IMG/VR virus record: IMGVR_UViG_3300027597_000043
Coordinates: 1 to 21,721 of that record
Source of the DNA: a virus
Direction: 5' to 3' (one strand)
Length of the DNA stretch: 21,721 bases
This document shows, in pieces, positions 15,446-20,657 of the stretch. The translations under genes and the position numbers were made by a program. The notes under the pieces were generated by a model, which was given only the letters and a program-made list of their open reading frames with translations, was not told the DNA's origin and searched no databases. How positions within the stretch are numbered: the stretch's first letter is position 1; every line of letters begins with the position of its first letter.

Positions 15446-15633
15446 TTGCGGCCAATTGTCTCGTTTGGTTGGATCCTGATGTCGCTGTTCCGGTAGGTCC
15501 AGCATTCGCGGGTATCGTCCTGAAAGCAGACCCAAAGAAGATCTGCTTCTGGCCCGTAGTCAATCACGAGATGCGCCCAGGCTTTTCCTCTGGGCGTTAT
15601 CAGTGGCAGCGGCGGGTTCAGCTGTTGGATCAT
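15442..15633 (-). CDS. Conserved-looking small phage protein, unknown function
   Basis: A 63-residue protein: MIQQLNPPLPLITPRGKAWA, then HLVIDYGPEADLLWVCF and DDTRECWTYRNSDIRIQ. From memory this pattern (PLPLxTPxGKA, hxIDYGxExDLxWV, then TxECWxxxN) recurs in small hypothetical proteins of alphaproteobacterial phages and prophages. That supports this start even though it overlaps the XRE gene by 74 bases in another frame. It looks like a compact beta protein of the size of an SH3-like fold. The function is unknown. Its stop is coupled to the next gene by ATGA. Confidence 0.72.
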   Translation of the reverse strand: MIQQLNPPLPLITPRGKAWAHLVIDYGPEADLLWVCFQDDTRECWTYRNSDIRIQPNETIGRK

Positions 15634-15889
15634 TTTGGCTTTCCATCATGGCGGCGGCCTTCTCGACTGAGATGATCAGGCTGGAGAGTTTGACGTTGCA
15701 GACGGTGGCGAATGTGACGAGGTGAGCCCAGCTGGGGGATCCCCGGCCGCCCTCCCAGGATGCCACTGCTGAGCGAGATACGTTCACCTTCCGAGCCAGT
15801 TCAGTCATTGACCAGTTGCGGTATTTACGCGCCGCGCGAAGGGAAATTCCCAACGCGCGTGCATAAAGATCATTTTTTGCCCGCGGCAT
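15560..15889 (-). CDS. XRE-family helix-turn-helix transcriptional regulator
   Basis: The 109-residue product has an HTH_3-type domain at about residues 13-70. LRAARKYRNWSMTELARKVN supplies helices 1-2. VSRSAVASWEGGRGSPSWAH contains the recognition helix and the typical SxWExGRxxP turn. The last 40 residues (KAAAMMESQNDPTAEPAA) are a low-complexity tail. There is no peptidase or dimerisation domain, so it is smaller than CI-type repressors. Its ATG shares a base with the stop of the MarR-like gene (TAATG) and there is no strong SD, so it depends on coupled translation. It probably represses phage promoters, possibly those at 18650-18780, but that is not shown. Confidence 0.88.
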   Translation of the reverse strand: MPRAKNDLYARALGISLRAARKYRNWSMTELARKVNVSRSAVASWEGGRGSPSWAHLVTFATVCNVKLSSLIISVEKAAAMMESQNDPTAEPAAATDNAQRKSLGASRD

Positions 15890-16185
15890 TAAGCAACGAG
15901 CATTTTGTTAAGGAATGCCATTCCTTTGGGGGTGATTAAAATTTGGACCTCGCGCTTGTCGCCTTTCTGTTCGCGCACGCGCCGCAAAAGGCCCTTCTCT
16001 TCCAATTTGTCTACGGTGCGAGAGATTGCCGGCGCCGACACCTTCAGCGCCTTGGCTGTCTCGTTAATGAGGGGCGCATCGTCCATGATGTCTGCGTGCA
16101 AGAGGATCTTGAGGCTCAACGTGCCGAGTTTGCCGGCCTTGTTGAGTTGGTCAAACATGACGATTGCTTTGTCTAGGTTGCTCAT
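15889..16185 (-). CDS. MarR-like winged helix-turn-helix regulator
   Basis: Start chosen at 16185: AGGAG lies nine bases upstream and the product MSNLDKAIVMFDQLNKAGKL begins cleanly, while an upstream in-frame ATG would add 45 Arg/Gln-rich residues overlapping the previous gene. The 98-residue protein has helices around KLGTLSLKILLHA, the recognition region LKVSAPAISRTVDKLEEKGL (about 49-68) and a wing RRVREQKGDKREVQILITPK, the hallmark of MarR-type DNA-binding domains. It lacks the long dimerisation helices of full MarR proteins, which are about 140 residues. It is probably a dimeric repressor or antirepressor acting on phage promoters. It is followed by the XRE gene with a one-base overlap. 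Confidence 0.85.
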   Translation of the reverse strand: MSNLDKAIVMFDQLNKAGKLGTLSLKILLHADIMDDAPLINETAKALKVSAPAISRTVDKLEEKGLLRRVREQKGDKREVQILITPKGMAFLNKMLVA

Positions 16186-16187
16186 TT

Positions 16188-16547
16188 TTATCTCCTGTCT
16201 ATGCGTCTGCTGACGCCTGTTATGACTTCGTAGGGGTTGATGCTGCGCTTGCTTTTGCAGTCGCAGCAAAGACGATTGTGATTGCCTTCTGAGTCGAACT
16301 CTTTCCGACAGCACATGCATGGCCTAGGGCGCAGCATGGGCTTTGGGGCAACGTGCAGTCCGGCTTGTTTGCGGACTGTTTCTGGTGGCGCCGGCACTTG
16401 GTAGACCTGCCGGCTCCTGATTGATCTGATGGTGCGGGCCGAGACATCAAAACGCTTGGCCAGCTCGTGGCTTAGCTCTGCGCTTTTGCGGATTTCATCC
16501 ACCTGCTCATCCGTTAGCTTGCGGTTGAAATAGGCGGCCTTACTCAT
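16188..16547 (-). CDS. Helix-turn-helix protein with a C-terminal zinc ribbon
   Basis: A 119-residue protein. Residues 11-46 (LTDEQVDEIRKSAELSHELA, then RFDVSARTIRSIRSR) look like the Hin/resolvase-type helix-turn-helix. After a Pro-rich linker, Cys77-x2-Cys80 and Cys94-x2-Cys97 form a C4 zinc-ribbon knuckle pair (PCMCCRKEF, RLCCDCKSK). The combination suggests a small DNA-binding regulator rather than a recombinase, as no catalytic serine or tyrosine domain is present. The end of the gene encodes the AGGAG used by the MarR-like gene three bases downstream. Its own ATG overlaps the stop of the 16-residue membrane ORF. Confidence 0.8.
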   Translation of the reverse strand: MSKAAYFNRKLTDEQVDEIRKSAELSHELAKRFDVSARTIRSIRSRQVYQVPAPPETVRKQAGLHVAPKPMLRPRPCMCCRKEFDSEGNHNRLCCDCKSKRSINPYEVITGVSRRIDRR

Positions 16548-18327: not shown

Positions 18328-18633
18328 TCAGGCCCCCCGACGCAGGTCAGCGGCGGCGCAGGCGCGGTTCCAAGAACCGTTCACGCGATTATCTTCTTCC
18401 TCAGCCACCGCGCGACCAACGAGGTCAGACAGCAGGTCGCGGGTGCTGTTGATCAGATCGTCGCACTCGTCGGTGCGGTGCATTTGGCGGATTTCCATAA
18501 GGCGCTCTAGAAAAGACTGGGTGGCGAACACCACGCGTTCAGCAATCGCCACAGTGGGGTGATCGTCAGCGGCATCCAGCTTCGCCAACTTGGACTTGAT
18601 TTCGCCTTCGAGGTTGAAATTGCCAATAGTCAT
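18328..18633 (-). CDS. First gene of the leftward operon, unknown function
   Basis: A 101-residue protein, ATG behind AGGAG, located about 40 bases downstream of the predicted leftward transcription start. The N-terminus MTIGNFNLEGEIKSKLAKLD is followed by helices around VAIAERVVFATQSFLERLME and DLINSTRDLLSDLVGRAVAE, then an acidic run EEEDNR and a basic tail. There is no helix-turn-helix or membrane segment. The promoter-proximal position suggests early expression at a high level, possibly as a host-takeover or regulatory factor, but this is inference. Confidence 0.78.
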   Translation of the reverse strand: MTIGNFNLEGEIKSKLAKLDAADDHPTVAIAERVVFATQSFLERLMEIRQMHRTDECDDLINSTRDLLSDLVGRAVAEEEDNRVNGSWNRACAAADLRRGA

Positions 18634-18680: not shown

Positions 18681-18709
18681 ACCTTACTGTTGCGTTTCGC
18701 GACAGTCAA
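18681..18709 (-). promoter_or_regulatory. Predicted leftward early promoter
   Basis: On the minus strand TTGACT (18709-18704) and TAAGGT (18686-18681) are 17 bases apart, close to the sigma70 consensus. They would start transcription near 18674, giving a leader of about 40 bases to the ATG at 18633. The 19-bp inverted repeat fills the spacer. Confidence 0.6.
18687..18705. promoter_or_regulatory. Putative operator within the leftward promoter
   Basis: CTGTTGCGTTTCGCGACAG is an inverted repeat with 8-base arms, seven of eight pairs matching, around a TTT centre. It occupies the whole spacer between the -35 and -10 of the leftward promoter, the typical place for a repressor site. Candidate binders are the XRE, MarR-like or Cro/YdaS-like proteins of this phage; which one binds cannot be told from sequence. 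Confidence 0.6.
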
Positions 18710-18745
18710 CATAAAAGATGGAAACTAATTTATTTTTTTGTCGTC

Positions 18746-18775
18746 TTGACAGGTTGCCAAAATGACGAGTAGGCT
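18746..18775 (+). promoter_or_regulatory. Predicted rightward early promoter, probably leaderless transcript
   Basis: A perfect TTGACA (18746-18751) and TAGGCT (18770-18775) are 18 bases apart; the -10 is weak apart from its TA and final T. The expected start site, 7-9 bases further on, coincides with the ATG at 18784. There is no Shine-Dalgarno sequence before that ATG. Confidence 0.5.
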
Positions 18776-18783
18776 CCTGCCCT

Positions 18784-19020
18784 ATGAAAAACGCGACCAC
18801 CTGCGATATCATCGAGGCCCTCGGCGGCGTGCAACACGTTGCCAATAAAATATGCGTTGATCAGCAGATCATCTACAATTGGATGAGGCCAACGCGGGGT
18901 ATTGCGCGGTTATACTGGCTTGACATCCTTGAGCTGGCGCGGCGTGAACGCGCAACCTGGATCACAGCCGAGGTGCTGAAGAAGGCTAAGGGGTTGTATG
19001 CAAGGGAGATTGCAAAATGA
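18784..19020 (+). CDS. Cro/YdaS-like helix-turn-helix regulator
   Basis: A 78-residue protein. Residues 8-51 (DIIEALGGVQHVANKICVDQ, then IIYNWMRPTRGIARLYWLD) follow the Cro/YdaS plan: helix 1, GG turn, A-x-x-x-x-x-V helix 2, a recognition helix ending in NW, and the arginine-rich turn before a YW helix. It is probably a small repressor of the divergent promoters at 18681-18775, like Cro of lambda. The ATG has no SD and sits where transcription is predicted to begin, so the mRNA is probably leaderless. It is followed by an ATGA-coupled gene and heads the replication operon. Confidence 0.82.
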   Translation: MKNATTCDIIEALGGVQHVANKICVDQQIIYNWMRPTRGIARLYWLDILELARRERATWITAEVLKKAKGLYAREIAK

Positions 19021-19259
19021 GCGGAAAAGACCCCATGGCGATTCTTATTGAGTATATCAAATTGCAGGAAAAATCTGTGAAATTGCATATTAAAAATCAA
19101 CCGACATTGCGTGATTTGTTTGCAATGGCAGCTTTGCAAGGTTTGTTGGCGAACCCTGAAACAAATACAGGATACGGGAGAGAAACTTACGCTTCTATTG
19201 CTTATGGGCATGCTGATGAGATGCTTAAATCACGCAAAAAGAAAATCTTATCCGTATGA
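19017..19259 (+). CDS. Small AT-rich phage early protein, unknown function
   Basis: An 80-residue protein coupled to its neighbours by ATGA on both sides. The middle TLRDLFAMAALQGLLANPET and the end YGHADEMLKSRKKK match a pattern I recall in many small phage proteins (RDxFAxxALxGLLANP, then AxxxADxML). None of these has a known function to my knowledge. The gene counts to about 39% GC over 19021-19260, against about 65% in the first 120 bases of the following gene. That is unusual for this region and suggests a separate origin or relaxed composition. Confidence 0.75.
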   Translation: MSGKDPMAILIEYIKLQEKSVKLHIKNQPTLRDLFAMAALQGLLANPETNTGYGRETYASIAYGHADEMLKSRKKKILSV

Positions 19260-20054: not shown

Positions 20055-20657
20055 ATGTCAACTTCAATTACGATCAAAAACGTCCGTTTGGCTTATGTGC
20101 ATTTGGTGGAGCCCCGCGCTGCTGCCGACGGCGCTGAGCCGAAATACAGCGTTACCGTAATCGTCCCCAAGACGGATACGGCAAACCTGAACGCCATTCG
20201 CGAAGCTATCAAAACAGCGCGTGAAGCACGCTGGGGAGCTAAGGCGCCCGCCGGTCTTCGCTCTCCGGTGCGCGATGGCGATGAAAAGGATGCTGATGGC
20301 AATTATGTGCGCGGCGAAGAGTTCCGGGGCGCATATTACATGAACGCCTCCAGCAAGCGGCCGGTAGATGCCAAAATTTTGATGGGTGGCAAGATCGTCA
20401 ACTGCCCGCCCGAGCATCTTGTCTCCGGCTACTACGGCAGCGTCATGGCCAATTTCTACGCCTATGAGGCTGTCGGGAACAAAGGCGTGAGCGCTGGCCT
20501 AAACGGCGTTACCATCACCAAGCGTGGCGAGCCCTTGGGCCGTAAGGTGGATTGGTCGCAGGCCATGGAAGGCGCTGAAGATTTCGGCGCTGGCGCAGCT
20601 GCCGCCGGCATGGAAGACTTTGGCGCCCCCGCGCAGGGTGACGAGATCCCCTTCTAA
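20055..20657 (+). CDS. Single-strand DNA-binding protein, DUF2815/Enc34 type
   Basis: A 200-residue protein, ATG six bases after GAGG (20045-20048). The N-terminal strands (ITIKNVRLAYVHLVEPRAA, then KYSVTVIVPKTD), the GEEFRGAYYMNASSKRPVD segment near 93-111 and GGKIVNCPPEHLVSGYYGSV near 117-136 match my memory of the DUF2815 family, shown to be phage single-strand DNA-binding proteins with an OB-fold. A Gly/Ala/Asp-rich flexible tail ends GDEIPF, nearly the same as the DDDIPF tip of bacterial SSB. It coats single-stranded DNA in replication and recombination. It lies between a nuclease and a primase gene, consistent with this role. Confidence 0.86.
   Translation: MSTSITIKNVRLAYVHLVEPRAAADGAEPKYSVTVIVPKTDTANLNAIREAIKTAREARWGAKAPAGLRSPVRDGDEKDADGNYVRGEEFRGAYYMNASSKRPVDAKILMGGKIVNCPPEHLVSGYYGSVMANFYAYEAVGNKGVSAGLNGVTITKRGEPLGRKVDWSQAMEGAEDFGAGAAAAGMEDFGAPAQGDEIPF

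Follow-up and report, generated by a model that had tools for sequence, protein, structure and literature searches.

Organization of the divergent early region

The window analysed here is the whole of IMG/VR record IMGVR_UViG_3300027597_000043 (21,721 bases), which is classed as linear and is probably a fragment. Close to its right-hand end, two early promoters point away from each other (Table 1). The leftward one heads a long minus-strand operon that has a gene for an XRE-type regulator near its end, and the rightward one precedes the gene of a 78-aa helix-turn-helix protein, here called HTH78, which is followed by three further genes on the same strand. The spacer of each promoter carries a palindrome; these are referred to below as op-L and op-R. 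The 248-aa protein encoded downstream of HTH78 belongs to a family found in 112 confirmed stretches of viral contigs, in many of which a RuvC-like gene adjoins it; among cultured phages, it has a single, distant match in Phage C72C1.

Table 1. Predicted genes and control elements of the early region (window coordinates)
Feature	Position	Strand	Remarks
XRE-type regulator, encoded late in the leftward operon	15560..15889	-	Best candidate for the op-L repressor
MarR-like regulator	15889..16320	-	Real start probably at codon 45
Leftward operon, first gene (101-aa product of unknown function)	18328..18633	-	Good Shine-Dalgarno sequence (GGAG)
Leftward promoter -10, TAAGGT	18681..18686	-	Matches TATAAT at 3/6 positions
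op-L, imperfect 19-bp inverted repeat CTGTTGCGTTTCGCGACAG	18687..18705	.	Core GTNGC-N5-GCNAC at 18689-18703
Leftward promoter -35, TTGACT	18704..18709	-	17-bp spacer to the -10
Rightward promoter -35, TTGACA	18746..18751	+	18 nt to the -10
op-R (TGCCAAAATGACG), degenerate version of a 13-bp palindrome	18755..18767	.	Perfect in L014-L018
Rightward promoter -10, TAGGCT	18770..18775	+	TANGNT in all eight genomes; 8 nt to the ATG
HTH78, Cro/YdaS-like 78-aa protein, probably leaderless	18784..19020	+	
80-aa protein, unknown function	19017..19259	+	PHROG 20565/2201; in only some relatives
248-aa protein, uncharacterised phage family	19256..20002	+	PHROG 10230
ssDNA-binding protein	20055..20657	+	PF10991

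HTH78 has seven relatives in IMG/VR, designated L012 (=L002), L013 (=L003), L014, L015, L016 (=L007), L017, and L018; the contig of L013 begins 50 bases before the HTH78 gene. A search of cultured phages with HTH78 gave no match, and no relatives were found when a collection with one genome per prokaryote species was searched for prophage copies using HTH78 and the 248-aa protein as queries. Examination of the 248-aa family (80 loci kept) for more kin of HTH78 yielded, beyond the relatives already known, only distant YdaS-like genes; those in L073-L075 have weak profile matches, and the one upstream region that was read has a different layout. The phage likely has an alpha-proteobacterial host, because a 630-aa structural protein encoded in the window matches the Caulobacter phages GB2A, RW, RLK, and KcrB at 54% identity, with 84% of the protein covered.

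The leftward promoter and op-L

The preliminary description of this DNA had placed an inverted repeat within a leftward promoter with TTGACT and TAAGGT hexamers 17 bases apart, and both elements were recovered. Its statement that the repeat exactly fills the spacer is inaccurate, because a 19-bp element exceeds a 17-bp spacer: op-L covers the spacer (18687-18703) and the last two bases of the -35 hexamer (18704-18709), and one of its arm pairs, T/G at 18691/18701, is mismatched. A plain sigma-70 consensus scan listed neither the leftward nor the rightward promoter, which is uninformative since both -10 hexamers are weak (3/6 positions). Symmetry equal to that of op-L is reached somewhere in the 150-bp intergenic region in 10 to 30% of dinucleotide shuffles and inside the leftward spacer itself in 0.6 to 3% of them. 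Judged from the window alone, the palindrome is thus no more than suggestive of a functional site.

The leftward flank is available in six relatives (L012 and L014-L018), and in each of them TTGAC[ACT] is followed, after 17 bp, by a hexamer that contains TA (TATAAG in two of them, otherwise TAGGGT, TAAAAG, TAAAGT, and TAAGGT). The GTNGC-N5-GCNAC palindrome lies in the spacer of all six, in five of them exactly; the copy in L015 has one mismatch and is placed one base nearer to the -35 hexamer. The substitutions are symmetric: in L012, L014, L015, and L016, core positions 3 and 13 form either an A-T or a C-G pair.

Copies of op-L are also found upstream of other early genes in G002, G006, and G009. 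Of 24 distinct regions upstream of a conserved 92-aa early gene, 11 contain the core, 7 of these in exact form and the others with one mismatch, always 48 to 53 nt from the ATG, and base shuffles of these regions contain it in 0.07% (exact) or 1.9% (at most one mismatch) of cases. The genome-wide count is 12, including 6 leftward-promoter copies, with 4.9 ± 2.5 expected, so that the remainder is within chance; the case for a regulon is built on position and spacing and not on copy number. The palindrome is conserved, changes in a compensatory manner, and recurs at other promoters, all of which are properties of phage operators. On this comparison, op-L is a predicted early-regulon operator, because the same core stands at a fixed spacing before a second early gene. 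The proposal of an operator in the leftward promoter is thereby strengthened, and the suggestion in the preliminary description to look for the 19-bp site elsewhere has a two-part answer: the exact 19-mer occurs once in the window, and the relatives carry additional cores.

Several features of promoters in the wider group are worth recording. In L135, L136, and L137, the equivalent promoter of the 92-aa gene (TTGACG-17-TAAAAG) encloses another palindrome, TTTTAGCGTTTTGATAAAA, at a distance of about 40 nt from that gene, as if these phages possessed another repressor specificity. A GGC-N6-GCC element (GGCAATGACGCC, GGCGCTGATGCC, GGCGATGACGCC), which could form a small hairpin, opens the 5' leader of op-L-type promoters in L131-L134, L137-L139, L147, and L159 and is also seen in the leftward-promoter leaders of L014-L016. 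Two op-L copies of one relative, at L042:11697 and L042:12427, have long flanks in common, with aaaacataaaaagtggttaagtatct on one side and caaggcaataacgccg on the other, and represent duplicated promoter cassettes of the early region.

The rightward promoter and op-R

The rightward layout, TTG[AC][AC]A followed by 17 or 18 nt, TANGNT, 6 to 8 nt, and ATG, is found in all eight genomes, so the conserved arrangement in the relatives supports both of the divergent early promoters proposed in the preliminary description. The spacer of the rightward promoter contains a second palindrome, absent from that description and different in sequence from op-L. It reads TGTCA-AAA-TGACA in three genomes, TGTCA-AAA-TGACG in L012, CGTCA-AAA-TGACG in L017, and, with a compensatory double change, CATCA-AAA-TGATG in L018; the compensatory pairs are C-G/T-A and G-C/A-T. 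The palindrome is decayed in L013 and in the window (TGCCA-AAA-TGACG, 3 of 5 pairs), where its own version has one exact copy. The core CAAAATGA is invariant, whereas promoter spacer bases are normally free to vary. Taken together, the comparisons with the seven relatives lift both putative operators, op-L and op-R, well above chance.

An ORF of ∼110 aa is located on the minus strand between the two promoters in L014 (5629-5949), L015 (5699-5950), and L016 (3211-3540). In these genomes, op-R falls within the ∼50 bp that separate this ORF from HTH78 and might serve both.

HTH78 and its translation start

The assignment of HTH78 to any family is tentative at the level of profiles. Within the Cro/YdaS family (PF14549, PF15943), its scores against YdaS (19.7 bits, cut-off 30) and P22_Cro (17.8 bits, cut-off 30.2) are below the thresholds, as is its match to the carph-isopro domain, for which the curated cut-off was likewise not reached; a weak match to the YdaS profile is seen in all eight family members. 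The predicted structure is a five-helix model (pLDDT 77) whose top fold matches are Cro proteins at E values of 0.37 or more, i.e., without significance, and a profile search of the PDB gave no match. The label "Cro-like" used in the preliminary description therefore agrees with the weak YdaS and P22 Cro matches, falls short of the curated cut-offs, and is a reasonable working name but not a statement of family membership.

An in-frame TGA lies upstream of 18784 with no start codon in between, which makes 18784 the first possible start of HTH78. In all eight genomes, the gene begins with ATG and has no Shine-Dalgarno sequence at a usable distance. Predicted pairing with the anti-Shine-Dalgarno sequence ranges from +0.7 to -4.9 kcal/mol in six of them. 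In L017 and L018, there is a G-run (-6.9 and -5.8 kcal/mol, respectively) that is unusable for this ATG because it is only 2 nt away, although it could act as a Shine-Dalgarno sequence for a second ATG, 6 nt downstream. The 101-aa gene that opens the leftward operon has pairing energies of -6.4 to -7.8 kcal/mol in each of the seven genomes that show it. The distance from the rightward -10 hexamer to the ATG stays at 6 to 8 nt in the eight genomes despite indels, which corresponds to a predicted leader of 0 to 4 nt. A leaderless or near-leaderless HTH78 message is thus a well-supported prediction from the geometry of the start region, and the earlier placement of the start codon at the expected transcription start, with no Shine-Dalgarno sequence, extends to all eight genomes.

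Candidate binding proteins and a recombination boundary

The window and L018 show a single difference over ∼104 bases up to position ∼18738 (∼5955 in L018) and only ∼65% identity beyond it. The break falls between the two promoters, with the swapped HTH78 gene on its right side, and position ∼18738 is taken to be a recombination boundary separating the leftward promoter from the rightward one. Among the window, L017, and L018, the XRE-type proteins are 90 to 97% identical and op-L is exactly the same; the HTH78 proteins of L017 and L018 have 56% identity to that of the window, their recognition helix differs, and so does op-R. Since op-L is unchanged and the XRE-type protein nearly so, while op-R and HTH78 change together across the boundary, binding of the XRE-type protein to op-L and of HTH78 to op-R is moderately favoured. 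The identity of op-L in these three genomes is weak evidence on its binder, because op-L sits in a recently shared block of DNA. Moreover, the HTH78 and XRE-type proteins of L017 and L018 are nearly identical, yet the op-R bases differ, which neither assignment of binders predicts.

The MarR-like protein was also considered as the op-L binder. It is disfavoured, and is the least likely of the proposed binders, because the fragments of two op-L-bearing relatives lack its gene. In the window (region 15889-16547), its ORF overlaps an upstream 119-aa ORF by 133 bases. Conservation begins near codon 45 (MSNLDKAIV), which is probably the real start.

Proposed separate control of the two promoters

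The favoured explanation, which is considered more likely than not, is that this locus controls early transcription in both directions in a phage whose hosts are probably alpha-proteobacteria, that each promoter has its own spacer operator, op-L for the XRE-type protein and op-R for HTH78, and that the HTH78 message is leaderless. A dimer bound to a spacer operator, between the promoter hexamers, would block RNA polymerase. By binding op-L, the XRE-type protein would shut down its own operon along with other early genes, in a negative feedback; HTH78, by binding op-R (the TGTCA-AAA-TGACA type), which is found only in the rightward promoter, would regulate its own synthesis. The HTH78 mRNA would begin at the AUG or a few nucleotides from it and be translated as a leaderless message. 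The sequence comparison shows the conserved promoter geometry, the two palindromes with their compensatory changes, the op-L regulon of the relatives, the lack of a Shine-Dalgarno sequence, and the recombination boundary; the pairing of proteins with sites, their repressing effect, the position of the transcription start, and a part in lysogeny, if any, are inferred. A more speculative extension, put forward as a possibility somewhat short of an even chance, is that the two operator-repressor pairs are unrelated, that each is inherited with its own flank, and that recombination between the promoters swaps one of them and leaves the other in place, making early control modular instead of a switch built on common operators.

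The main alternative is a lambda-like switch, with the XRE-type protein as the CI-type repressor, HTH78 as Cro, and cross- or dual-promoter action deciding between lysogenic and lytic development. Such an arrangement would account for the divergent promoters, for an HTH gene that stands where cro would, before the replication genes, and for Cro proteins being the top fold matches of HTH78, and YdaS and PaaR2 of CP-933P act in this way (PMC8630535). It is nevertheless unlikely here. The XRE-type protein is short, is encoded far from the promoter, and lacks the C-terminal domain of CI-type repressors. The two operators differ in sequence and do not form a single family serving both regulators, unlike the common operators of lambda, although one regulator could conceivably bind both of these unlike sites. 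Nine related contigs, the longest of 54 kb, yielded no integrase, resolvase, or ParA (PF00589, PF00239, PF13614); all of them are fragments, so this is not proof of absence. Because recombinases of both the tyrosine and the serine type and ParA are lacking from these contigs, the "genetic switch" of the preliminary description is unproven as a lysogeny switch.

A lower probability attaches to the idea that HTH78 is a CII-like or other activator and that op-R belongs to another regulator, such as the XRE-type protein. HTH78 weakly resembles the CII-like PHROG 101 (E value of 0.01), and op-R diverges between L017 and L018, whose HTH78 proteins are nearly the same; both observations fit such a role. 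However, HTH78 matches YdaS and P22 Cro better, its gene is promoter-proximal, and op-R lies in the spacer, which is a repressing position. About equally improbable is an HTH78 message with a more distant upstream start whose translation, like that of most Caulobacter genes, needs no Shine-Dalgarno sequence. The rightward -10 hexamer is indeed weak, and a Shine-Dalgarno sequence is lacking at the start of 75% of the genes in C. crescentus (PMC4117421), but the near-constant spacing between this hexamer and the ATG argues against an upstream start, and no other conserved promoter was seen upstream. Finally, that op-L is a functionless chance symmetry, plausible from the window alone given how often intergenic shuffles reach it, can be rejected almost with certainty upon comparison with the relatives, six of which conserve its position with symmetric changes, and in view of the recurrence of its core at another early promoter.

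Comparison with known systems

Spacer operators, divergent layout, and a leaderless Cro-like gene are each already known from other phages or bacteria. In phage lambda, the operators of the OR region lie in the spacers of the divergent promoters PR and PRM, and the cI message made from PRM is leaderless; its operators form one family that is bound by both CI and Cro, and its cro gene has a Shine-Dalgarno sequence. The window resembles lambda in having putative spacer operators at divergent promoters and a probably leaderless message for a putative repressor and differs from it in that the lambda operators are one family.

Leaderless transcripts are common in alpha-proteobacteria: 375 such mRNAs are known in C. 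crescentus (PMC4117421) and 171, with a poorly conserved -10 element, in S. meliloti (PMC3616915). HTH78 is like these genes in its predicted 5'-terminal AUG, in needing no Shine-Dalgarno sequence, and in its poorly conserved -10 element (PMC4117421, PMC3616915); it differs in being a phage gene whose start is predicted from geometry. In the N15-like telomere phage PY54, the cI and cro mRNAs were both found by RACE to start at the AUG, and Cro binds one 16-bp operator (PMC4488713). The wiring regarded in the preliminary description as unusual thus has a precedent in PY54 cro, and a leaderless Cro-like gene would be unsurprising because such mRNAs are normal in the probable host group. PY54 resembles the window in its divergent regulators, in its leaderless cro, the counterpart of the probably leaderless HTH78, and in an A/T-rich stretch adjoining the cro promoter, but its cI gene is promoter-proximal and leaderless, and it is a temperate phage with a plasmid prophage (PMC4488713). 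By comparison, the leftward promoter of the window serves a long early operon that opens with a gene having an ordinary Shine-Dalgarno sequence, and no lysogeny gene was found in the nine related fragment contigs.

CP-933P has a leaderless message for PaaR2, its CI analogue, while the part of Cro is played by YdaS (PMC8630535). The paaR2/ydaS locus is alike in having a YdaS-type Cro analogue beside a divergent repressor operon and palindromes that overlap both promoters. It has four similar palindromes across these promoters (PMC8630535), whereas the window has a separate operator sequence for each, and the leaderless gene is that of the CI analogue there and probably that of the Cro-like HTH78 here.

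These comparisons outline, in testable form, how early genes may be regulated in uncultured phages that are linked to Caulobacter phages through a structural gene: the elements are two putative operator sequences, a predicted early regulon, and a Cro-like gene whose message is probably leaderless. The most interesting point is whether each promoter answers to its own repressor; if it does, with a recombination boundary in between, the arrangement would be unlike that of lambda, with its common operators.
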